NCBI GenBank assembly: GCA_028554795.2
Contig: CM068830.1
Span: 115,190,714 to 115,254,713, forward strand
Direction: 5' to 3'
Length of the DNA stretch: 64,000 nt
From: Sinohyriopsis cumingii
Lineage: Eukaryota; Mollusca; Bivalvia; Unionida; Unionidae
Shown piece by piece: positions 15,440 to 64,000 of this stretch; positions within the stretch are counted from its first letter, which is position 1, and each line of letters begins with the position of its first letter. The position numbers and the translations under genes were made by a program. The notes beneath the pieces were generated by a model. The model was not told where the DNA came from. It did not search any database and saw only the letters and a list, made by a program, of their open reading frames with translations.

Positions 15440-16200
15440 TAATAACATATATCTTATCTACTGAAGGCTGCATACATTCCGACCAGAAAACTAAAATATA
15501 GCCAATAACGTACGCCTACATTCCGTTTAAATAACAAAAATAGAGCCACTGACGTCTTTCTACATTCCGTCCAAACAACTAACATATATCCACTCACGTC
15601 TGCCTACATTCCGTCCAGACAACTAAAAATAGCCAATGACGGATGCTTACATTCTGTCCAGACAAATAACATATAGCCACTGACGTCTGCCTACATTCCT
15701 TATTTACTACTAACATATAGCCATTGACGTCTGCCTACATTCCTTCTTTACTACTAACATATAGTCATTGACGTCTGCCCACATTCGACCGATCCGGTGG
15801 CCTAGTGGTTAGAGCGTCCGCCTCGGATGCGGGAGGTCGTGGGTTCGATCCCCGGCCGAGTCGTACCAGAGACTTAAAAAATGGTACTAACAGCTGCCTC
15901 GCTTGGCGTTCAGCATTAAGAGGTTAGTGTTAGGACTGGTCGGCCTGGTGTCAGGATAATGTGACTGGGTGGGACATCATGCTACATGTCTGCGGCATGA
16001 TGCCCCTGTGCTAGACATCACTATAAACTGCCACACTGCAGACATCGTAGCGATATGACTGAAAAATTGTTAAAGCTACGTTAAAAATCAAAATCACATC
16101 ACATCACATCACTGCCCACACTCCGTCTAGAATAATAACATATAGCCACTGACGCCTGCCTACATTCCATCTTTACTAATAACATAGAGCCCTTTACATC
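15440..16200. repeat. Satellite-like array interrupted by a SINE
   Basis: Units of roughly 45 bp contain TACATTCCGTCCAGACAA, CTAACATATAGCC and ACTGACGTCTGCC. The array runs from about 15460 to 15786 and resumes at 16112 after a SINE insertion. Confidence 0.85.
15787..16111 (+). mobile_element. tRNA-derived SINE, family A, copy 1
   Basis: The head has a pol III A box (TGGCCTAGTGGTTAGAGCG) and a B box (GGTTCGATCCC) spaced as in a tRNA, then a shared body (GCTGCCTCGCTTGGCG, GACTGGTCGGCCTGGTGTCA, GACATCATGCTACATGTCTG) and a tail of ATCAC repeats. It sits inside a tandem array with a target duplication CTGCCCACATTC (15775-15786) / CTGCCCACACTC (16112-16123). Three more copies of the same family occur in the window (18188, 30618, 33218). 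Confidence 0.9.
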
Positions 16201-16369: not shown

Positions 16370-17650
16370 AGGATCAGATCTGTCATCACATAATCTGCAG
16401 ACAGATCTGTGTCTATGTAGCTTTTAGGAGTATTCATTAGAACACATACCAGACAGATCTGTGTCTATGTAGCCTTTAGGAGTACACATTATAATATATA
16501 ACATATACAGCTAGGTCTAAGTAGCTTTTATGAGTATTCATTAGAACACATAACATAATATATGTGTCTATGTAGCTTTTATGAGTATTTATTAGAACAC
16601 ATAACAGACAGATCTGTGTCTATGTAGGTTTTAAGAGCATTCATTATAACACATAACATACAAATCTGTGTCGATGTAATCTTTAGGAGTATTCATTAGA
16701 ACACATAACAAACAGATCTGTGTCTATTTAGCTTTTAAGAGTATTCATTATAACACATAACATACAAATCTGTGTCGATGTAATCTTTAGGAGTATTCAT
16801 TAGAACACATAACAGACAGATCTGTGTCTATTTAGCTTTGAGGAGTATTCATGAGAACACATAACATACAGATCTGTGTCTATATAGCTTTTAAGAGTAT
16901 TCATTAAAGCACATAACATACGTATCTGTGTCTATGTAGCTTTCATGAGTATTCATTAGAACACATAACATACAGATCTGTGTCTATGAAGTCTTTAGGA
17001 GTATTCATTAGAACATATAACAGACATGTCTGTGTTTATGTAGCTGTAAGGAGTATAAATTAGAACACATAACAGACATATCTGTGTCTATGTAGCCTTT
17101 AGGAGTTACCATTAGAACACATATCAGACAGGTCTGTGTATATGTAGCCTTTAGGATTATTCATTAGAACGCATAACATACAGCTTTATGTCTATTTAGA
17201 CGTGAAGAGTATTCACTAGAACACATAACATACAGATATATGTCTATGTAATCTTTAGGAATATTGATTAGAACACATGACATACAGATCTGTGGTTTCG
17301 TAGCCGTTAAGAATATTTATTAGAACACATAACAGACAGAGCTGTGTCTATGTAATCTTCAGGAGTATTCATTAGAATGCATAACAGACAGATCTGTGTC
17401 TATGTAGCCTTTAGGAGTATTCACGAGAACACATAACATACAGATCTGTGTCTATATAGCTTTTAAGAGTATTCATTAAAAAACATACCAGATAGATCTG
17501 TGTCTATTTAGCCTTTAGGGGTATTCATCAGAACACATAACAGACAGGTCTGTGTCTATGTAGCCGTTAAGAATATTCATTAGTACACATAACAGACAGA
17601 TCAGTGGCTATTTAGCTTTTAGGAGTATTCATTAGAACACATTACATATA
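16370..17650. repeat. Minisatellite, about 52-bp unit, 24 or so copies
   Basis: Units contain ACAGATCTGTGTCTATGTAG, CTTTTAGGAGTATTCATTAG and AACACATAACA. The AGATCTGT core is palindromic. Copies differ by substitutions and small indels. Confidence 0.9.
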
Positions 17651-30617: not shown

Positions 30618-30950
30618 AGCGTGTGTGTGATTTGGATTTTTAACGTAGAGTTAACGTAGCTTTAACAATTTTTCAGTCATATCGCTACGATATCTACAGT
30701 GTGACAGTTTATAGTGATGCCTAGCAGTGGGGCATCATGCCGCAGACATGTAGCATGATGTCTCACCCAGTCACATTATTCTGACACAAGGCTGACCAGT
30801 CCTAACACTAACCTATTAATGCCGAGCGCCAAGCGAGGCAGCTGTTAGTACCATTTTTGTAAGTCTTTGGTATGACTCGGCCGGGGATGGAACCCACGAC
30901 GTCCCGCATTTGAGGCGGACGCTCTAACCACTAGGCCACCGGAGCGGTCA
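30618..30950 (-). mobile_element. tRNA-derived SINE, family A, minus copy
   Basis: Reverse complement of the family seen at 15787: the minus strand reads GGTGGCCTAGTGGTTAGAGC, a changed B box (GGTTCCATCCC), the shared body and a CACACAC tail at 30618-30632. Confidence 0.9.
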
Positions 30951-40226: not shown

Positions 40227-40937
40227 CGTGTTTTAAAAACGAACGTTATATTAGTTGCTCAGTTTTGAAGAAGGACTAAATAAAAATATTTGACAACTTT
40301 AATGACACAAATTCATTTAACGCTAGCGTCTTCTTAATGTTTTGTAATATACATATACCAAAATTCATGTATGATGACTCCTTGCATAGAGTTTATACAC
40401 CTCTGTACAGTCAGCAGTGGTAGAAGTTTTTAAATAACACGCGTGGTAATATTTCTCTTTGCTTCAACTAAATGCCAGGTGAGTTAACTGAAGACAGCAA
40501 TTATTAAAACCATTTCCTGTAATTATGACTTAACTTCTTCTCATTCTTACTTCCATTCCTTTCCTTCAAGGTCCGTTCTTTCATTTCAATATTTGTACGT
40601 ATGCCAATCCCAACTGCTACGTTTGTAAACTAGCCAAACACGGTTTAATTAATTGAGGAATCACAATCAGTGTGTTAATATTTTTGTACTTCATGATAGC
40701 CATTTTCAACTAATATTTAGATGACGGGTGGGGTGATTATAAAGGTTGGCACATGACATAAGAACTGTTCTCTGTGACAAAGTAGGGGCGAGACTAATGA
40801 ACATTGCCGCCGGAGTCATCAAACACTAGCACCGGCACTGAATTCAAATGCATTGTATGTATCAAAGTACGTATATACATCCAACAAAATTATTATTAGA
40901 TATTCAACTGTAGAATTCCTTTAAACAATGACCGTAC

Positions 40938-41213
40938 ACTGTACTACAATATCCATGTAATCCTCAATGGGTGTCCCGTAGGTATTATCTCCTGTACAAC
41001 CCCATGTGCCATTAGTCCGTCTAGTCACCTCTGATATAATATAATTAGACCTTCTCTCCATCTGTAACTCCGCGCCATCTTGTGTCCAAATGAACGAAGA
41101 GGGTTGTGGGTAAGCTTCAATCACTGCACAGTTGAGGACAACATTTTTCTGGCCTAGCCTTATTACAGCTCTATTAGCATTGAACCCTGTATTTAATTTT
41201 ACCACAGGAGCAT
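40938..41213 (-). CDS. Immunoglobulin-domain exon
   Basis: A 276-bp exon, minus strand, with acceptor CTATTTTCAG and donor T|GTACGG, phase 1 at both ends. It starts DAPVVKLNTGFNA. The Ig pattern is visible: first Cys in VVLNCAVIEAYPQP, Trp in SSFIWTQDGAEL, second Cys in NGTWGCTGDNTYG, and a final strand MDIVVQ. The second-Cys motif (GTWGC instead of the usual YxC) is unusual but keeps the Cys. The donor GTACGG is weak; the next upstream and downstream Ig exons end with the same T|GT arrangement, which supports the choice. Confidence 0.8.
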
Positions 41214-41769
41214 CTGAAAATAGATTAAGCGTGATTAGTGTCTTTTGTTTTGATATGTTGTGCGCTTGCTTGGTTATTAGCAGTCTGTTTGTTGGACCTC
41301 GAATCGTCGATACAATATTACATTATTTGGTTGTTTTTGGACTAGCTGTGAACTATTAAGTTTATTGTTGTTACCTGAACAAATTAGTATCTTAAACAAG
41401 GCGACAAAAATAAAAAAAAAAAAACACCATGAAGAGAACATTAAAATTCAACGTGAGAACCCAGTGATTATGAATCCCATGTAGCCAGACCCTCATATCA
41501 CATCCTTCTCACCTAAATTGTTATCGAGGAGGATAATCATGTTTGTCTCAACAGCACACTTCTCCCCAGCGTCTATACCCACGTATGTACTCACGTCTAT
41601 ACCCACAACAAAATATGCACAATGTTCAAACTGCGTTATCAGACATCAAATCAAAGGTATGATATGTTTACTTTATACATCGAACATCTATATAATACTC
41701 AAGATATGTTGGTGGTTTTATCGTCCGAGTCATCTTGAGCGCCATGTTAATGTAGTTATGGACGGCAGT

Positions 41770-47783: not shown

Positions 47784-47832
47784 AAAAAACGAATTCATGA
47801 TTTCACATGACGACACAAGACAAGAAACTTAC

Positions 47833-48102
47833 ACATTATCGTGACATTAACAGTACTTGATGCCGTTCTATTGAGAGGTGATTGTCCTGTTGGGTAGAGA
47901 GTATTATTGGCTATGCATGTGTAGATACCCTCCTGATTTCTGCTAATGGACGATATCATCAGGTTGGCGGACATATACGTAGTCATATCGGGCTTTACCC
48001 ACACAACAACAGGTGCTGGATTTGCTAATACAGAACACGTCACCTGCAAGGTGTCTCCTTCCTCAATTTCTTTACTGTTAGCAAGGGAGATAACTGGTCC
48101 GT
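47833..48102 (-). CDS. Immunoglobulin-domain exon (most N-terminal one seen)
   Basis: A 270-bp exon, minus strand, with acceptor CATTTTTCAG and an excellent donor T|GTAAGT, phase 1 at both ends. It starts DGPVISLANSKEIEEGD and shows LQVTCSVLANPAP (first Cys), VVVWVKPD (Trp) and EGIYTCIANN (second Cys), a canonical I-set/C2 Ig domain; NRT and NVT are possible glycosylation sites. If the acceptor is ignored, the same frame runs back to an ATG at 48193 and gives a hydrophobic leader-like stretch (MRFSFLAAVCLHVFNSIFNL). This could be a signal peptide, but it coincides with the intron's pyrimidine tract and I favour an intron. In the likely protein order this domain precedes those at 45861, 41213 and 36708. 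Confidence 0.87.
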
Positions 48103-49784
48103 CTGAAAAATGTATTGTCAAATTAAAAATGGAATTAAAAACGTGTAGACATACAGCTGCTAAAAAGGAAAAACGCATGATGTATGAATCCATGAAATAA
48201 ATAAATCAAAAACGAACAAACTCAAACACCAATAATTCATTATACTTGTATGCAGTAAAATGTCCTAGACCACATACACACGTAAAAGTGAAAAATCTTT
48301 TATTACGTGTGCAAAATCAAACCAACGCAAAGGTAAATAAATAAATAAATACAGAGTTCCTTTACTGTATGATTCAATACTACTCCAAAGATCGCTAGAC
48401 CATTCATATAGCGTGCCTTACAAATTCATGTAGGGATAAGACACTATTTATGGATCTGTCATTATGCAAAACATACCCTCGAGTGCCAGGAACACACATA
48501 CTTTTTGGTTTATAAAAAAAAAATAAAAATACCCTCGAACAGCTCGACCTTATGCTTATTTCTTTGTTCTAGACAGAGTAAAGCGCAAATAACTAAAATG
48601 GTACAACATAAATAATGGCAAACGGTGCATTTCGATATGTCAACAGATTTTAGACATGAGATACTATTATGCATACTTATTTTGTATGATTGACATTGGT
48701 CAGGAATTGAGGGTAGAGGCCGACCTGACTGCTCACATCTTTTTCTGTTGGTTTTTGTTTGGCAAGCAGCATCTGATATAGCTAATCAGTGTCTACCATT
48801 TACGTTTATATTAAAATCATTGTTGCTTGGAGGTAAGCATCTTTAGAGATGTTGAGGCAAAGGTATATTTCTTATACATTAGTAATGATCTAAAAGTAGT
48901 CTTTGTATGAATTTCATGAGAAAATAACCCCTTCTTGGTTCTGTTATTGTGTCTTAGTTTTTTATTTATAGGTGTGTGAGTGTGTGTGTGTGTGTGTGTG
49001 TTTCTGATTTTAACGTAGGTTTAAACGTGGCTTTATTTATAGGTAGTGATAAAGAATTACTCATTCCATATCTTAACATCAATCTTGAGTTGTTTTCAGA
49101 TGATTTAATTAAACTGTTCACTGGAATTACAAACTGCTCATTGATTTAGGACTAAATCAGTATTCTGGAATTATTGTAAATTCATTCAAGGACATTTTGG
49201 ATTATATCATTGTGAGTCATCGAGACTGCTAGCACATCAGCGCCATTTCAAGTTACTGGTACACTAACACATTCAAGACAGGAATTCATTCGGAACACCA
49301 TTCTTAGTAAATTGAGAGTACTCTATATTTTTGAACTTGTGATAGAACGTTTAGAACTATTTGTGATTCAATTCACAATACCTAAAGTTCCTTTTTAATC
49401 TTCATTTAGTATTCCAGAAAAGAAATTAATTGTTAATTTTACAAAACTTGGTTTTCGCTCTTTTCCGTTACCTTGTTTAACATCATAAAGTCCTAACAGA
49501 AAGTTGGAGCTCCTCAAGGATACGATTTTCTGAAATATATTTCAGTGAAATTAAAATTGTTTTCGAAATTATATTCACTTTGTTTCGGAATTGTCTCAGT
49601 CTCTTGCATTTTGATTTTACATATCTGAAAAATCTTTCGTTAAACCAACAAATTTTTACAGTGTCATCTGAAATGGATGACCCTGTTTGAAATCCATCCC
49701 ATAACACGTTCAAATCTTTGAAAACAGAATTATAGATAAGAAAGATGAAATAAAAGAAATGAAAACTTAAGTTTCAGATAGAAA
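48103..49784. other. Probable intron or 5' region of the Ig gene; nothing firm
   Basis: A (GT)n tract lies at 48968-49002 and an A-run at 48515. No further Ig exon was recognised on the minus strand. Confidence 0.4.
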
Positions 49785-55929: not shown

Positions 55930-57654
55930 GACTTAGCAAACGATAATAATTACTCATAGTTGAATTGGCTAAACTAGATGTGCTCAGCAAAGCAGATAAT
56001 GTATTGCCTTTTGAGGCCCTCAGTAATCGGCAAAAACATCAGATACATCCGATCGCAATCTCGGCAGAATCAACTAAGGCAAAAAAACGTGGATAAGAAC
56101 ACATAACTGCGATGTTTCATTTCGTAGACAATATGTATCACACTTTAATATATTAGTATGCTAATTTTACGTTTGCATCATGGTACAAAACTGACGTTTA
56201 AATTTTAAAAAATGAACCTGATAAGACTGCATTCGAATCGATTGGCAACAGCATTTCTATGGCACGTTGTTTATTTTTATAAATTAATAAGAGTTTTGCC
56301 ACAGGGTATTATGTGAGAGACATCTAGAGAAATAAACTCTTGACAAAATGAGTATCAATTTGGTAACTAAGTATTATAATAAATATATTTCTGCTGTCAG
56401 ATTTCCAAATTATGTTTCAAACCTTCAATTGTCACATGTCACAATTATGTCTCACACCTTCAACCTCACATCACCCAAATATATCTCATGCCTTTAACTG
56501 TCACCCAATTATGTCTGGTAATATCTGTTGCTGCAGCTAATTGAAATAATTGTAACACAAATGTCTTTAAACAGCACCTCTAGCCTTTCTCCGAGACGAA
56601 GTTAATATTTATCACCTCTAGCCTTTCTCCGAGACGAAGTTAATATTTATCACCTCTAAGATCACTTTCACGTAGAAATTGTAAATACTTTCAAAGTTGT
56701 AATATTTCAAATTCAACATAATCCGATAATTTCAAGATTGTGTCTAATTCATTTAATAAAGAATTTTATTAACAGTTATTTGTTTCTTTTTTAATTCATC
56801 TTTAAAGTATTGTTCATGTTGATCCTAATGTTTAAGTTTTACAGTCAGAGATATCTGATGCATATGTTTTAACAGCATTTTTAAATGCATTCAGTTCAGC
56901 TGCTAATTTTTTTTAGATCATTTCTATGTGGCGGATTTGCAAGTGCATAGTCTTTCATAACCGTTTGATCTGAAACTTTCATTTTCATTTGCTCCCTTTA
57001 AACATCAGGCACAAGCTGATATTTACTTTGTATCGAATCTTTGCCTAATATGCTGAAGTCACATTTTGTCATAATAATGAAAAGAAGTCAAACAGCAAAC
57101 AATTAATATACGCCGCACTTAATTCGTTTGGGAAAAATGTAATTGGTCATCGACAGCCATTATAAAACATTTTGAAGTTTAAAATCAACAGTTAGTATAC
57201 TAACATCATCTCAATCCAACCATATAAGTATCATACAACTCAATATCAAGTGATACAGATACAACCATATTAATATAAACTCCATGAAATCTTTAAATTT
57301 GTTTTTCAAAGTTGAGTAAAATATTTCTTAATGATGTTGTTGAAGATATCAAAGTAGACATTGTAAAGCCAATTCTTCCAATTTAGCTTAATTCTAAAAC
57401 ACTTCATGATACTAAACTGATATCTTGTAATGAGAATCGTTAATACCAAAGAGATGAATGAACAATACTACAAATATACTGTGCTAAATAATTTACATAT
57501 TTTCGGGTAATACGTATCAGACAAATATAGACTTAAACATAACAACATTATCAACATAATTTAGCATTCGACATATAGCTCAGTTTGCATTGTTGAATGC
57601 AACATGTTATTGCAAATATCCAGAGGTTTACAGTCGGTCTCTCATGTCAGTAGA
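55930..57654. other. AT-rich intergenic DNA with one small duplication
   Basis: At 56575-56655 CACCTCTAGCCTTTCTCCGA plus GACGAAGTTAATATTTAT is present twice in a row. No gene recognised. Confidence 0.5.
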
Positions 57655-57985
57655 CATACTTAGCAAGTTATAAAGGTTATTTAAGTTAGTTATAAAGGTT
57701 ATTTAAGCAAGTTATAAAGGCTATTTAAGCAAGTTATAAAGGTTATTAAAGCAAGTTATAAAGGCTATTTAAGCAAGTTATAAAGGCTATTTAAGCAAGT
57801 TATAAAGGTTATTTAAGCAAGTTATAAAGGTTATTAAAGCAAGTTATAAAGGCTATTTAAGCAAGTTATAAAGGTTATTTAAGTTAGTTATAAAGGTTAT
57901 TTAAGTTAGTTATAAAGGTTATTAAAGCAAGTTATAAAGGTTATTAAAGCAAGTTATAAAGGTTATTAAAGCAAGTTCACAAAAG
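57655..57985. repeat. 22-bp tandem repeat, about 15 copies
   Basis: The unit is AAGTTATAAAGGTTATTTAA plus GC, with GGCTATTTAAGC and GGTTATTAAAGC variants. Confidence 0.93.
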
Positions 57986-58283
57986 AATGACTAGTAGATG
58001 TTAATATGGAAAATATTGTTATTCAATAAATGTTATATAAAGAAAATCTTCACGCTAATTTCAGTAGGTTTTAGCTACAGCCTAGTTCCGCGCGTAACAT
58101 CTACTTATCTTTGACTAACTTTGCAAGGTATTTCAAAAAAGCTAATAAGAACAATGTGTTTTAATACAAAGGTTTAAAACATGAATAATGTGTAATATTG
58201 GCCATCATTAAAATGAGAAGCACCAATGACATTATAAACAAAACAATCACGGAAAATGAAACTAATCATGAGGAGAGTAGTAA

Positions 58284-58504
58284 CGTGGGATACCCTACGT
58301 ACAATGGGAATTAGCATTAAAAACACCCCTGGGACACTCTACGTACAATGGAAATTTAACATGGCGAAAAATCGTGGGACACTCTACGTACAAGGGGAAT
58401 TAACATGGCGAAAAATCGTGGGTCAATATACGTACAAGGGAAATTAACATGGGAATAAATCGTGGGTCAATATACGTACAAGGGGAATTTAACATGGGAT
58501 TTTT
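58284..58504. repeat. Five 44-45 bp iterons at the edge of the right-hand element
   Basis: Copies start at 58284, 58328, 58373, 58417 and 58461. Each contains CGTGGGACACTCTACGTACA (or GTCAATATACGTACA) then AGGGGAATTAACATGGCGAA. The TACGTAC-type palindrome is kept in all copies. The array sits exactly where base composition changes from AT-rich host DNA to the virus-like element, so it may belong to the element's terminal region. A minus-only or plus-only gene here is not supported. Confidence 0.8.
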
Positions 58505-58579
58505 TTTGTTAAATATGGGATTTTTTTTAAAAAAAGGGGTAGGCAATTGAAAAGTCATTCTCTTTTCGAGAAATATGGG

Positions 58580-58595
58580 GGCCCTGAAAAGGGCC
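58580..58595 (-). terminator. Histone-type mRNA 3' stem-loop, minus strand
   Basis: The minus strand reads CAAA then GGCCCTTTTCAGGGCC then CCCA: a 6-bp stem with a TTTC loop, as in the animal histone-mRNA stem-loop consensus with its A-rich 5' flank and ACCCA-like 3' flank. A purine-rich GAAAAGAGAA follows 12-20 bases later on the same strand, in the place of a histone downstream element. It lies 24 bp beyond one stop (58620) and 7 bp beyond another (58603) of the small minus-strand ORFs. Confidence 0.75.
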
Positions 58596-58602
58596 TTTGG
58601 GT

Positions 58603-58853
58603 TTATGTTAATGTTTCCATTAACATAAAGGGCACCGCATTGGTCTTCTTCTTGTCCTTAGGCTGCGTCTCACTGTTGGCCCTTAAATCAGCACTCTTTT
58701 GAGGCATCCTTGTCTTTCGACGTAGATCCTACGTATCCACAGACTGGTGTTTGTCCTGTGGACAACGGTCCACTTGGATCGGACATACATGAGCATGTCC
58801 GTCCTGAACATCATGGAAGACACAAGCGTAGAAGATTGCACATCGGTCCACAT
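58603..58853 (-). pseudogene. Small basic ORF(s) of the divergent pair, probably frame-damaged
   Basis: A TATAAATA box at 58905-58898 predicts a transcript starting near 58870, and the first ATG after it is 58853. That frame runs 56 codons (RSKWTVVHRTNTSLWIRRIY in the middle) to a TAA at 58685-58683. It then stays open for 20 more codons, 7 of them Arg (VRRSLRTRRR), to a TAA at 58622-58620, 24 bp before the histone-type stem-loop. A second ORF, ATG 58707 to TAA 58603 (34 codons, KPKDKKKTN-type charged sequence, starting MPQKSADL), overlaps in another frame. I recognise neither. The Arg-rich character suggests a nucleic-acid-binding protein, such as a core or protamine-like protein, but this is inference from composition only. 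A base change or an annotation in the wrong frame are both possible. Confidence 0.45.
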
Positions 58854-58897
58854 CTTGAAGCGACGAGAACAGGTGAATCAATGCAGTGAACTGCACT

Positions 58898-59025
58898 TAT
58901 TTATAGGTAGAGGTAGGATTGAAACGGATTGAGTTCATTCACCAATCCGAACACGCGTTACAAAATTCAGTCAGCCCGCATTCAATCCGAAGAGAGCAGT
59001 CTGTGACGTCACGTAGTCTATATAG
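58898..59025. promoter_or_regulatory. Bidirectional promoter with two TATA boxes and a CRE
   Basis: The minus strand has TATAAATA at 58905-58898 and the plus strand has TATATAG at 59019-59025. A perfect CRE palindrome TGACGTCA lies at 59004-59011. The first ATGs follow at 58853 (-) and 59073 (+), 52 and 54 bp from the upstream edge of each TATA box, so both leaders are very short. The layout matches divergent core histone gene pairs. Confidence 0.7.
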
Positions 59026-59072
59026 ATTCGCTAGCGCTTGTGTGCAGTCAATCTATGCGACAGTGATTCAAC

Positions 59073-59641
59073 ATGACGGAAACTCAGAAAACGATCCATT
59101 GGGGTGCACCAACAGAGGAGACTGCCCAAGGGAACCCGGACTTACTTTCAGAAGAGGTGAATTGGGATTTTGTGGACTTTCTCTCCTCGCAAGAATTTGT
59201 TCCGGAACCTTCGTTACCTTCTTCATTACCGCAAGTGGAGAATTTTAGACAGAGACAGAAAGAAGAATTGGAGAAATTTATACAACGACAAAAGGAAGCG
59301 GAACAAGCTTTTCTCCTACAGCAGCAAGAAGAAGAGGTAAGAAAAAAACAACAGCAAGATGAAGTAGCAGCAAAGAAACAAGAGGGTGAAAAAATCAAAC
59401 GGTCACGGTACTGTTGGACATTTTAGCGGAGTTAAGAAGTCTTAAACAAATGTATCAGACTTCTTTATTACGACCGAAGAGAATACGACCTTCCCGAGCT
59501 AAACACGTTAACCCTGTGACTAAGCTTACCGTACCACCCTTAGTGATTTCAACCCAATCATCATCATCATCATCATTACGCAGTCCAGAAGTAGGCCTTG
59601 GCCGTGGCAAAGGCTTAAGGCAGTTAAAGTTGATTGTTTAA
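59073..59641 (+). CDS. Coiled-coil protein of the divergent pair, split by a frame change
   Basis: From ATG 59073 the frame gives 117 codons to TAG 59426: an acidic N-terminus (EETAQGNPDLLSEEVNWDF), then a Glu/Gln/Lys-rich helix about residues 58-105 (RQRQKEELEKFIQRQKEAEQ, EEEVRKKQQQDE) that looks like a coiled coil. The frame two bases on is open from 59390 to TAA 59641 and looks equally protein-like (LLDILAELRSLKQMYQ, a basic RPKRIRPSRAKH, a Ser run, GLGRGKGLRQLK). A one-base change at the A6 run 59389-59394 would link them. The second stop is 25 bp before the histone-type stem-loop, which supports it as the true end. No family recognised. The basic, Ser-rich tail after an acidic coiled coil would fit a structural or DNA-associated protein, but this is inference only. 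Confidence 0.6.
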
Positions 59642-59666
59642 ACTCACCCTTACACCAAAATAAAAA

Positions 59667-59681
59667 GGCCCTTTCAGGGCC
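59667..59681 (+). terminator. Histone-type mRNA 3' stem-loop, plus strand
   Basis: Plus strand: AAAAA then GGCCCTTTCAGGGCC then ACCCACA, followed by GAAAAGAGATAG at 59695-59706. Flanks and the purine-rich element match histone 3' ends. The loop is one T shorter than the canonical four bases (three with a 6-bp stem, or five with a 5-bp stem). It lies 25 bp after the stop at 59641. The block 59664-59722 is an inverted copy of 58542-58598. Confidence 0.75.
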
Positions 59682-59940
59682 ACCCACATTTCTCGAAAAG
59701 AGATAGCCCTTCAATTTTGCCAATAACTCAAAAAAAAAAAAAATAACCCACCCATTTTACCCTTATAGTACGTGTCTTTTTATATGAGTGCGTGAGTGTA
59801 CGTTCTTATTTTAAAATCAAAACTCAAAGACACTTACCTTATATCATTAATTTATTCTTTAATCCATTTTTACAATCCAATTCACAATTCACAACACAAA
59901 ACTTTAATTAAAAGTTCATTGACTTCTTCTGTCTCCTTGT
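59682..59940. other. Convergent intergenic region
   Basis: Contains the downstream element of the plus gene, an A13 run near 59730 and the 3' UTR of the zinc-knuckle gene. On the minus strand AATAAA lies at 59856-59851, about 85 bp past that gene's stop. Confidence 0.6.
59851..59856 (-). terminator. Poly(A) signal of the zinc-knuckle gene
   Basis: AATAAA on the minus strand, 85 bp beyond the stop at 59941. It contrasts with the stem-loop 3' ends of the neighbouring pair, which show no such signal at the same place. Confidence 0.55.
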
Positions 59941-60432
59941 TTAGTCTCTCTGTTTTTTGAATTTCTTCACCGTCACACTCTTTTCCTCTTCTTCCTCCTC
60001 ACTTTCTTCCCTTCTTCTTTTCTTCTCCTGTTTCTTTTTCTTCACCTGTCTGCTTTCTTCCTCTGAAGAATCCCTCTCTTCCTCTGAAGAATCCCTCTCT
60101 TCCTCTGAAGAATCTCTCTCTTCTTCTGAAGAATTCCTCTTTTCTTCTGATTCCGCTTGTTTCTTTTTTGGGCAATCTGGAGACCAATGTCCTTTTTCTT
60201 TACAATAATAACAGGTATCTTTACTTTTGTCTTTTTTAGCCCCTGTTTTTTTTCTTTTTTGACGGTCTGGACACTCTGAAGACCAATGCCCTTTCTTCTG
60301 ACAGATATAGCAAGTATCTTGACTTTTATCTCGAAAGGAAGGAGAGTAGTCCGTCGGCTGGTCTGAAGAGAATTTTCTAATGACCCCTCGCAAAGCTCTG
60401 ACGAAACGTTCGATTTGGCTAGTCTCTTCCAT
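59941..60432 (-). CDS. Double CCHC zinc-knuckle protein with acidic Ser/Glu repeats
   Basis: About 163 residues from ATG 60432. A short N-terminal helix (METSQIERF-like start, ALRGVIRKF) is followed by two perfect CX2CX4HX4C knuckles, CYICQKKGHWSSEC and CYYCKEKGHWSPDC, separated by a basic linker (RKKTGAKKDK). Then come four heptads of the SSEEERD type and a Lys/Arg/Glu-rich tail with KKKKQEKKRRR, a likely nuclear signal. CCHC knuckles bind single-stranded nucleic acid, so a role in nucleic-acid handling next to the polymerase is plausible but not shown. An upstream ATG at 60480 is in frame, but it lies within 6-17 bp of the TATA box (60497-60486) and so before the expected transcript start; I therefore chose 60432. 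The SSEEERD repeats are typical casein kinase 2 targets. Confidence 0.8.
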   Translation of the reverse strand: MEETSQIERFVRALRGVIRKFSSDQPTDYSPSFRDKSQDTCYICQKKGHWSSECPDRQKRKKTGAKKDKSKDTCYYCKEKGHWSPDCPKKKQAESEEKRNSSEEERDSSEEERDSSEEERDSSEEESRQVKKKKQEKKRRREESEEEEEEKSVTVKKFKKQRD

Positions 60433-60567: not shown

Positions 60568-63500
60568 ATGAAACGATCCTATTCATTTGAGAAGAAAGAA
60601 GAAGAAGAAAGTAAGAGGCAGAAACGTGATCTATCGCCTCGTACCAGGGCTGAAATCTTGGCACAAATTCATGCCAGTGATTTTGAAGAGGACATGAGTG
60701 AACCAGAATTTGAAACCTCTGAACCAAGTTCGCCACCCTTAGTCAACCCTGAAAAATACTATTCCATTCGAGAGACGGAAAAGCGCTCCTCTAGAAAATT
60801 TAGAACCACGGCTTACAAATACACGGTGAAGTTTAAAGATTTCAAGGCTGAAGTGCCGTTAGAGAAAGCAGAAGTGTTTATCACTGGGGTGTGGGATTCT
60901 CTGCTCACTGCACTCAAGCGACAATGTCAACCCAAAGAAGACGATCGCTTGAGACTTTCCATACAACACGACGGTTTGAAATCCCCTGTTTGGATCGAGT
61001 TTAGCACCCCTGCAGAATTGACCGCTTCCAAAGTCATGGACAAGATTCAACACGTGCAACAATCTAATGACCAGTTTGACATCACCGATGTAAAAGCCAC
61101 ATTGGACATGACCCACGTCTCTCCTCCTCAAGGGACCGGACGCAAAAGGATGATATTGGTGGACGATCTTCGCAGCACCAAAACGAGTCTCGTCCGAATT
61201 AACAACACTCATGACCAGATGTGTTTAGCCCGTGCCATCGTGGTGGAACGAACCTATGCCAACAAGAACGACACGGTAGAATGGAAAAGAACCTGGAACA
61301 CTATTCAACGTTCCTATCGAGCCAAACAACGAAACGAAGCAGAACTCCTGTTGCAACAAGCTGGCCTGTCCAAAGACACACCCTGTGGCATTCCTGAGAT
61401 GCAAAAATTGCAAGATGTCCTAGGTCCACGCTACACCTTGAAAGTGCACCCTCAAGAAATGCGCGGGCCTCTGTTGTTTCGAGGCCAAGATTTTAAGGAC
61501 GGAAAATACATTCACCTTTATCATCACGATGACCATTTCGATACCATTACCAGTATCACTGCATTCCTGGGATACGGTTATTATTGTGAGAAATGTGATT
61601 ATGGTTATAACAATCGAGAGCAACACAAGTATTGTGGAATGAAATGTCCAGGATGTTTGGCCTCTCCACCCTGTCCGAGCGAAGAACCAGTGCCTTGTTC
61701 AACTTGTCTGCGCACGTTTGTCAGCCCTACCTGTTACCAACAACATTTGAAGACGCAAGGTTCACAGCAGAAATGTGCTTGTCAACTGCTGAGATTGTGT
61801 CCTACCTGTGGACAAGGCATACTTACCAATAATGCCAAGGCACACGTATGTCGAGGAAAGAAAAAATGTCACATTTGTAACCACATCGTGGACTTGGAAC
61901 ACCAATGCTACGTGCAAAAATACCAACCCCCACCAGAGAAAGAGGACGGTCGCAAGAAAAAAGGCAATTTCATCTTTTTCGATTTCGAATGCATGCAAGA
62001 GACCGGCATTCACATTCCTAATTTCTGCGTGGCTCATCGAGCGTGCGAGAAGTGCATTCAAGAACCTATCTTCAGTCATTGCCCTCACTGCAGCAAGATT
62101 CCTGGAGAGCGTGAAAAAATCTTTCGGGGACCGAACACGTTAGCCGATTTCGCTCGATGGGTCTTAGACCCCATCGACAAGACGTGGAGCCAAGAGGACA
62201 TCGAACGTTACGGAGATTGTCATCGTCATGCCACGGTGATGGCTCACAATTTTTCCGGATACGATGGACAGTTTCTTCTCAGATACTATAAGGAACAAGG
62301 CACCGAACGTCCTAAAGTGACTTTGAAAGGAGCCAAAATCATTTTCATGCAAGTGGGACAAGTACAGTTTAAAGATTCGATGAGCTATTTGGCCATGCCT
62401 TTGAGTCGAATGCCTAAAACGTTTGGAATGACAGAAATGGCTAAAGGGTACTTTCCACACTTTTTCAATACGGAAGCCAATCAACACTCCGTTCTACCCC
62501 ATTTACCCGAGGCTCACTATTACGACCCCGACAACATGCGTACCGAACAACTAGAAGCTTTCTACGCTTGGTACCAGGCTTACGCCTCGGACCCTTTCGA
62601 CTTTCAGGAAGAAATGCTAAAGTACTGTCGTTCCGACGTGGACATTTTACGGCGTTGCTGTGGAAAATTTCGAGAACTGTTCATGGAACACGGAGGGGTC
62701 GATCCTTTGAAAGAAGCTTGCACCATTGCCAAAGCGTGTTCCTTAGTGTATCGACAACGATTCATGCCTGAAAACACCGTGGCTGTCATCAGTCCTCAAA
62801 CGACCCACTTTGTCAAACGTCAATACTCGGTCAAAGCCCTACGTTGGTTACATTACTTGTGCAACAAGGAAGACAAGTGGATTCAACATGCCCGCAACGG
62901 AGGGGGCGAAAAGACCATCGGAACGTATTCGGTCGATGGCTGGGACTTAGAAAACCCTAAGATCGTGTACGAGTTTAACGGTTGCTTATTTCACGGATGT
63001 CCCGTCTGTTACCCTGGCCGTAGCACTAAAAATCAGTTTTTACAACGAACCATGGAAGACTTGTACCAGGACACTTGTCAGCGACGCCTAAAGCTAGAAC
63101 AGCAAGGATACCAAGTGGTGGAAATGTGGGAACACGAGTACGATCACCGAATGAAAACCGATCCCGAGTTTAAACGCCTCGTGGAAAGTTACCAGTTCAT
63201 GGACCCGTTGAACCCGAGGGATAGTTTGTACGGAGGAAGGACCAATGCCACCTGTTTGCTGTACCAAGCCGACGAAGAGAAAGGAGAAGAAATCAAATAC
63301 TTGGACGTGTGTTCGCTGTATCCCTACGTGTGCAAATATTGTCGCTTTCCTGTAGGGCACCCGCAATTGCTGACTGAACACATCGACCTGAAAAACATTC
63401 GACAATACGAAGGCTTGATCAAGTGTAAAGTTTTGCCTCCCACGAACCTATACCATCCCGTCTTACCTCACCATTGTCAAGGCAAACTGATGTTTCCCTT

Positions 63501-64000
63501 GTGCCGTACTTGTGCCGAAACGTGCAACCAAGACCAGCCTTGTCAGCACACCCAGGAAAAACGTGCCTTGACGGGAACCTGGGTCAGCGTAGAATTGTTC
63601 AAAGCTATGGACATGGGATACCAACAGTTAGAAGTGTACGAAATTTGCCACTTTCCAAAGACACAACAATACCACAAGGGTGACCCCAGTCAGAAAGGCA
63701 TTTTCGCCGACTACGTGGATGCCTTTTTGAAACTGAAACAAGAAGCTAGCGGCTATCCTTCCTGGTGTCACACTCCCGAAGACCAAATACAATTCAAAGA
63801 GAAATACTACGAACAAGAAGGCATCTCTTTAGACCACATCGAAAAAAAACGAAGGCAGGCGATCGTTTGCCAAAGTGATGTTAAATTGCTTGTGGGGTAA
63901 AATGGCACGACGACCGTGTTTACCCAAGACGGAATATTTGACACTACCTTCCCGCTACTTCCAGATGATTCACGACAAAACCAAATACATGAAATACGTG
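60568..64000 (+). CDS. Protein-primed-type family B DNA polymerase (frame change near 3' end, cut by window)
   Basis: An ORF of 1110 codons. It has a charged N-terminus with a basic KRQKRD, a Cys/His-rich region at about residues 335-455 (YYCEKCDYGY, CGMKCPGC, CSTCLRTF, CPTCGQG, CHICNH), and the exonuclease motifs Exo I FDFEC (D472, E474), Exo II HNFSGYD (560-566) and Exo III YCRSDVD (686-692). A YEFNGCLFHGCPVC segment, GGRTNA (889-894) and PolA DVCSLYP (913-919) follow. This order is that of the large polymerases of Polinton/adintovirus-like elements that start replication from a terminal protein. The annotated frame stops at 63900, but the region with motif B (NCLWGK) lies in the next frame from about 63851. 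That frame was closed by a TAG at 63830, so a one-base change lies in the A8 run 63842-63849. The catalytic motif C is beyond the window. Replication enzyme of the right-hand element; broken gene, assembly error or slippage cannot be told apart here. Confidence 0.9.

Follow-up and report, generated by a model that had tools for sequence, protein, structure and literature searches.

Predicted histone-type 3' end signals of the host on five end genes of a high-copy Polinton in the bivalve Sinohyriopsis cumingii

S-phase histone mRNAs are said to be alone among the protein-coding transcripts of animals in not being polyadenylated (PMC12819152), and in a cnidarian a stem-loop and a purine-rich element together with no poly(A) signal are given as the mark of replication-dependent histone genes (PMC5011920). 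Stem-loops are reported for all histone mRNAs found in Lucina, and two of the five forward primers of that study start with AAAAAGGGCCGTT (PMC6210712). The complement of this primer start, AACGGCCCTTTTT, looks by our reading like the type of stem considered here. We analysed a stretch of 64,000 nucleotides from the unionid bivalve Sinohyriopsis cumingii (assembly GCA_028554795.2, contig CM068830.1, positions 115,190,714 to 115,254,713 of the forward strand), which we call the window and whose own numbering is used throughout. It contains one end of a Polinton with a divergent pair of small non-histone genes, each followed by a predicted 3' end signal of the histone type. The presence of such a signal, matching that of the host, on five end genes of a high-copy Polinton is, as read from the genome, a real and unexpected feature, and it suggests that the element borrows the DNA-synthesis-linked mRNA machinery of the cell.

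The signal of the element resembles the 3' end of histone mRNA, as modelled by the Rfam family RF00032 together with the downstream element, in its 6-bp stem, U-rich 4-nt loop, A-rich 5' flank, ACCCA-like 3' flank, AAAAGA motif 14 nt downstream, nearness to the stop codon and core shared with host H2B; it differs in that the genes carrying it belong to a mobile element and are not histone genes. With Polintons (Mavericks) and adintoviruses the element shares terminal inverted repeats (TIRs), 6-bp target-site duplications and a DNA polymerase type B (PolB), as well as an rve integrase and an A32-like ATPase encoded in a sibling copy (middle piece L033), whereas histone-type stem-loops on five end genes set it apart from the described members of these groups. 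Mavericks are reported from all mollusc genomes analysed in a survey whose accessible text contains neither "stem-loop" nor "histone" (PMC10294476), and "stem-loop" is likewise absent from the accessible text of a paper describing histone-like genes in related viruses (PMC11071296). Searches of the open-access literature, covering listings and a few passages, brought up no account of Polintons with histone stem-loops. Animal DNA viruses that borrow from the histone system have precedents in the H4 gene of Cotesia bracovirus (PMC12819152) and the "Histoid" of Xeno-class adomaviruses (PMC11071296). Those viral genes borrow a histone-like protein, whereas the Polinton would borrow the signal at the RNA end for proteins that have no Pfam histone match.

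A sequence-only reading of the window had proposed histone-type 3' stem-loops on both genes of the pair, and the hairpins are present on both outward strands where it placed them. The minus-gene stem-loop, GGCCCT-TTTC-AGGGCC (58580-58595, minus strand), has the 5' flank CCAAA and the 3' flank CCCAT; the plus-gene stem-loop, GGCCCT-TTC-AGGGCC (59667-59681, plus strand), has the 5' flank AAAAA and is followed by ACCCA (59682..59686, plus), the predicted cleavage region, near which, by the rules of histone processing, the transcript would presumably be cut. The A-rich 5' flanks and the plus-strand ACCCA were described correctly, and the minus 3' flank departs from the description by lacking the A, an absence that recurs in both TIRs of the window element. 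The purine-rich motif expected downstream was also found after both stems: AAAAGAGA, which resembles the histone downstream element, lies 13 nt past the minus stem (58559..58566, minus) and 14 nt past the plus stem (59696..59703, plus).

The covariance model RF00032 recognises both sites, spanning 58556-58600 on the minus strand (32.2 bits) and 59662-59706 on the plus strand (31.2 bits), with E-values of 1.3e-6 and 2.8e-6 in a scan of 3.5 kb around the hairpins and of 2.3e-5 and 5.1e-5 in a scan of the whole window with all 4227 Rfam families. This bears out the proposal of histone-type processing signals on both genes: the scores are far above background, although they lie just under the curated cut-off of 34 bits, so that a scan at the gathering threshold omitted both sites. 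Beyond these two, RF00032 has no match at E up to 1 in the window. Only two places in the 64 kb combine a perfect 6-bp stem containing 5 or more G/C with a loop of 3-4 nt, and both are these hairpins; their individual folding energies (-10.9 and -11.0 kcal/mol) were equalled by 4 and 5 of 200 shuffled sequences.

The same signal is found in host histone genes. The exact core GGCCCTTTTCAGGGCC is present in host H2B, in two array units on contig C1 (L031), and a histone repeat unit (L058) carries H1, H2A, H2B, H3 and H4, each with a full-length RF00032 match of 35.0-39.4 bits; a further H4 match there, cut by the end of the stretch, scores 33.7 bits. In stem, loop and flanks the signals of host H1, H2A, H3 and H4 are close variants of the element type. 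AAAAGA begins 14 nt after the stem in host H2B and in 36 of the 38 stem-loops of 19 sibling pairs, and also in 14 of 20 copies chosen by protein similarity; it stands at 13 nt in the minus gene of the window and at 15 nt in host H1, and host H2A has no exact AAAAGA. Host H2B and two further genes of the element, genes 4 and 5, have CTCTAGAAAAGA in common. The loop is 4 nt long in host histones and sibling copies, against 3 nt at the plus site of the window, a count that is biased for the siblings because they were fetched through a core containing the 4-nt loop; among the 20 protein-chosen copies there is one case of a 3-nt loop (L093). The H2B units of L031 (C1:5073000-5076500) belong to a tandem array with a spacing of 1851 nt, two of whose seven listed units were fetched, and the 8.3-kb repeats with all five histones are separate from this array.

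The core is exceedingly common. In the 2.905-Gb assembly it occurs exactly at 16,943 forward and 17,287 reverse sites, 34,230 altogether, some of which are host histone genes, and the reversed control sequence occurs at none on either strand. The arrangement of the sites was read from 100 listed ones in the first 5.9 Mb of contig C1. Fifty-six of them form 28 divergent pairs with members 1066-1104 nt (about 1.08 kb) apart, and for 21 of these pairs a third outward site, assigned by distance alone, lies 15.2-25.7 kb off; the remainder comprise seven sites in one tandem array and 37 other singles, third sites included. At about three exact sites per copy, extrapolation suggests some ten thousand copies of the element. 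The plus gene is present in all 19 fetched pairs. When 20 of the 28 loci L004-L031, picked for the exact core, were scanned with RF00032, 35 of the 39 matches reached the cut-off, two of the 39 being host H2B. In L034, L035 and L037, pairs listed with one exact site, the partner stem-loop differs by a single base, and in the single-site stretch L036 just the one exact stem-loop was seen. The hairpins had been expected in related copies, and the core sites, the fetched pairs and most of the protein-chosen copies considered below all carry them.

The signal stands behind five small non-histone genes near the ends of the element, two of them in the TIRs. Besides the divergent pair these are gene 3, which lies in the far TIR and encodes 189 aa in L009 and 198 aa in L010, and genes 4 and 5, placed inward of it. 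The window element has one RF00032 match for each of its five genes, and the three sites outside the pair score within the same range as the whole set (29.5-32.2 bits); in L033 genes 4 and 5 reach 31.0 and 23.5 bits. The distance from stop codon to stem is 21-31 nt in eight element genes, compared with 34-38 nt in host H2B, H2A and H1, and in the three genes whose stem-loop lies outside the TIRs it is 25-31 nt in the copies measured. The nine middle open reading frames (ORFs) of L033 (2275 to 9366), integrase and ATPase included, have no RF00032 match at E up to 1, and there is no stem-loop of the CCHC gene among the RF00032 matches in the window; this comparison with core genes excludes PolB, whose 3' end is in none of the pieces. 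The earlier suggestion that the signal serves late or structural transcripts finds no support. None of the proteins of the five genes has a histone match in Pfam, in agreement with the initial impression that the two ORFs of the pair are not histone-like.

The behaviour of the stem in divergent copies speaks for its retention. In genes 4 and 5 the stem reads AGCCCT...AGGGCT, with a compensated outer pair, and in 12 distinct element rows of the alignment this outer pair is GC in seven, AU in four and unpaired in one. Paired cells made up 95.8%, a proportion that 4 of 500 shuffles attained and that no slid version came up to; the counts of further pair types and of pairs with a change on both sides showed no excess over shuffles (reached in 500 and 459 of 500). 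These counts use 19 of 26 rows, with the plus site of the window (misaligned through its 3-nt loop) and six host rows omitted. As a sample chosen by protein and not through the core we took the 20 best protein matches to the plus-gene relative P0043, which represent a divergent subfamily and of which only 161 nt were read per 3' end; the search had given 46,252 first-look candidates, 150 of them scored. Sixteen of the 20 have a site with at most three mismatches to the core and at least five of six pairs, which none of 1000 shuffled sequences had, and most of these stems read GGTCCT...AGGGCC, with a G-U pair. At the level of DNA, then, the signal, its match to the host, its position after stop codons and its retention are established.

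We put at about 0.78 the probability that the five end genes use host SLBP/U7 processing and so yield non-polyadenylated, S-phase-coupled mRNAs. A high-copy Polinton would have placed host-type histone 3' end signals behind five small end genes; host SLBP would bind their transcripts, the U7 machinery would cut them, and the transcripts would remain without poly(A) and would therefore be made and kept mainly during cellular DNA synthesis. The two stem-loops in the TIRs would, in addition, end outward transcription at the borders of the element. The use of the signal in RNA processing as such is likely. It also seems somewhat probable that these genes represent a whole class of non-histone mRNAs of endogenous viruses that are formed without poly(A) through SLBP and U7, with five accessory genes timed to DNA synthesis. 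If so, the Polinton would break the rule that only histone mRNAs lack poly(A) in animals and would be an example of a mobile element exploiting S-phase mRNA processing. It would provide natural, independently evolved substrates of SLBP and U7 and would make it possible to test directly how such elements time their genes to DNA replication, and the ten thousand or so copies could load the SLBP/U7 machinery enough to affect the host. Since RNA-seq with poly(A) selection would miss such transcripts, this could explain why they have not been noticed earlier.

Several observations weigh against SLBP/U7 processing. The evidence consists of DNA sequence, with the signals read from genes. Both stem-loops of the window fall just short of the 34-bit Rfam cut-off (32.2 and 31.2 bits), and that of the plus gene has a loop of 3 nt. 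Four of the 20 protein-chosen copies are altered: the loop is 3 nt long in one, the stem is damaged in another, and no stem-loop is recognisable in the remaining two. The compensated pair could also go back to one inherited change. A search of the genome for host U7 with RF00066 gave no match, its control likewise matching nowhere, and the fit of human U7 to the two downstream regions was equalled by 576 and 593 of 2000 random 35-mers from the window. AATAAA starts 8 nt before the plus stem of the window and precedes the stem in 6 of 19 siblings, which would allow polyadenylation there as well in some copies; in L033, AATAAA stands 112 nt past the stop codon of gene 5, and among the nine core ORFs of L033 only one has AATAAA within 150 nt. 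Finally, two contigs with distant PolB relatives (L001 and L002) have no RF00032 match at E up to 10. A U7 look-alike (L089), one of 60 pattern matches against 141 for the control, was rejected: it has no RF00066 match and is a decayed copy of the element, its surroundings matching the 3' region of genes 4 and 5 at 72-75%.

A lesser but real possibility is that the element uses histone-type RNA ends for compact termination and insulation and not for coupling to S phase, in which case SLBP may exist outside S phase in the cells concerned. The stem-loops of the TIRs point outward at both borders and the genes are short and compact, as this would lead one to expect; the proposal overlaps with S-phase-coupled processing, and the present evidence does not separate the two. 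It is considerably less likely that the hairpins act in the DNA, as a feature of the TIRs in replication origin, packaging or end recognition, and owe their histone likeness to an old capture. In the three copies in which both ends were compared, each of the two TIRs does include a stem-loop at its inner edge, but the stem-loops of the other three genes lie outside the TIRs, 25-31 nt past the stop codon in the copies measured, the spacing of AAAAGA equals that of host H2B, and the outer pair is compensated. A shade more doubtful still is the idea that the hairpins are functionless fossils of a captured pair of host histone genes, amplified with the element. Such an origin would account for the divergent layout, as in H2A-H2B pairs, and for a core identical to that of host H2B in copies that are all of common ancestry; however, 16 of the 20 divergent copies have kept the stem, even though stops interrupt many of the 150 frames scored, one pair is compensated, and three more genes far from the pair have their own stem-loop. 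Chance hairpins are refuted by the RF00032 scores (E-values over the whole window), the count of the stem pattern and the 34,230 genome sites against none for the control, and a nested small inverted-repeat transposon, which the 40-nt inverted repeat formed by the two arms (85% alike) might suggest, is rejected because by eye no separate duplication goes with the repeat unit, the Polinton having GAGGAG, and because the plus gene is linked to PolB in the fusion protein P0044.

The element around the pair, taken initially for virus-like, is by its TIRs, target-site duplication and PolB, and by the integrase and ATPase of its sibling, a Polinton. In the window copy it is 21,249 bp long with TIRs of 329 bp that are 99.4% identical (two mismatches in 329; the far end is in L032). 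The left TIR (58276..58604) has the minus-gene stem-loop at its inner edge and is similar to the TIRs of two sibling copies, which measure 322 and 329 nt (99.4% and 98.2% identical) and also have an outward stem-loop at the inner edge. The left target-site duplication, GAGGAG (58270..58275), recurs after the far terminus ACTACT in L032, and it had been marked as a likely duplication in front of 58276 before that far end was fetched; the termini read AGTAGT, and the duplications CATGTT and GTTGAC are readable in sibling copies. Repeats of about 44 nt (ACGTACAAGGGG type) occupy 58284-58497 within the TIR, sibling TIRs also contain internal repeats, and 22-nt tandem repeats (57618-57990) lie directly to the left of the element.

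Inward of the pair the window element has a CCHC zinc-knuckle gene (59941..60432, minus; PF00098), which has no stem-loop and has AATAAA at 59856 on the minus strand, 85 nt past its stop codon, and the PolB gene (60568..63900, plus; PF03175), whose frame is broken near 63850 and which reaches its 3' end outside the window. A search of the protein collection gave 38 homologues of PolB, with 46% identity in the best case; the records of five name the oysters Saccostrea and Crassostrea. The rve integrase and the A32-like ATPase were recognised with Pfam in the sibling piece L033; its ORFs of 437, 309, 306, 214 and 128 aa had no Pfam match in the same scan, from which ORFs of 138 and 102 aa were left out. 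Adintoviridae are defined by a BLASTP-recognisable hexon and a PolB with an OTU-like domain (PMC11071296), and the assignment to Polintons made here rests on TIRs, target-site duplication, PolB, integrase and ATPase. At the left edge of the window an ORF for an A32-type packaging ATPase (837-1514, plus; PF04665) marks a second Polinton fragment, and past the stem-loop of gene 3 in L008 there is an ATPase fragment (2631-2948) that by eye is like it; Polintons may adjoin or nest.

The minus gene (58683..58853, minus) encodes 56 aa in the window copy because of an early stop; in 17 of 19 sibling pairs its frame stays open for 76-78 aa, giving an Arg-rich basic protein with isoelectric points of 11.0-11.6 (four computed). 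Another frame, favoured by codon usage, proved wrong since sibling copies show the frame of 76-78 aa; the piece in the wrong frame, which is the one compared with the protein collection, had no match there. Between the two genes lies a putative divergent promoter region (58854..59072), in which a motif scan finds TATA-like boxes near 58905 (minus) and 59019 (plus) and TGACGTCA at 59004-59011. The plus gene is frame-broken in the window, with a first open part of 117 aa (59073..59426, plus) and a C-terminal part in another frame (59411..59641, plus) that aligns with the C-terminus of its relatives P0039-P0043; the ORF is open over 186-193 aa in 10 of 19 sibling pairs. The family has proteins of about 186-205 aa with one long predicted helix, which in the structure prediction for P0040 covers 64-141, the remainder being of low confidence (predicted template modelling score, pTM, 0.24). 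Six relatives were found at E up to 10, on short contigs: five are P0039-P0043 (193-205 aa), and in the sixth, P0044, the plus-gene N-terminus is fused to a PolB piece (19 of 23 residues identical), so that the plus gene is tied to PolB elsewhere too. For the plus gene, NCBIfam and PHROGs gave no further information. Its protein ends in GLGRGKGLRQLK (59600-59641), and MSGRGKGG occurs in the ORFs of host H2A and H4 in L058, which is possibly chance.

No relatives of PolB or of the plus gene were found in IMG/VR, and the phage records contained no relatives. Stem-loop patterns matched 0, 0 and 1 times in IMG/VR, and the one match, inside a phage ORF and at 21.3 bits, is due to chance. GTDB contigs held no relatives of the plus gene, and the PolB search there gave L001 and L002, two Polinton contigs of animal type that are catalogued as bacterial (a Nocardioides metagenome-assembled genome and a Solemya velum symbiont), which are probably misbinned or host DNA. 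Elsewhere in the window, two tRNA-like RF00005 matches (15791-15863 and 30873-30945) are alike in sequence and perhaps represent a family of short interspersed nuclear elements, and ORFs with immunoglobulin domains (40921-41322 and 47795-48205, minus) are probably exons of a host gene.

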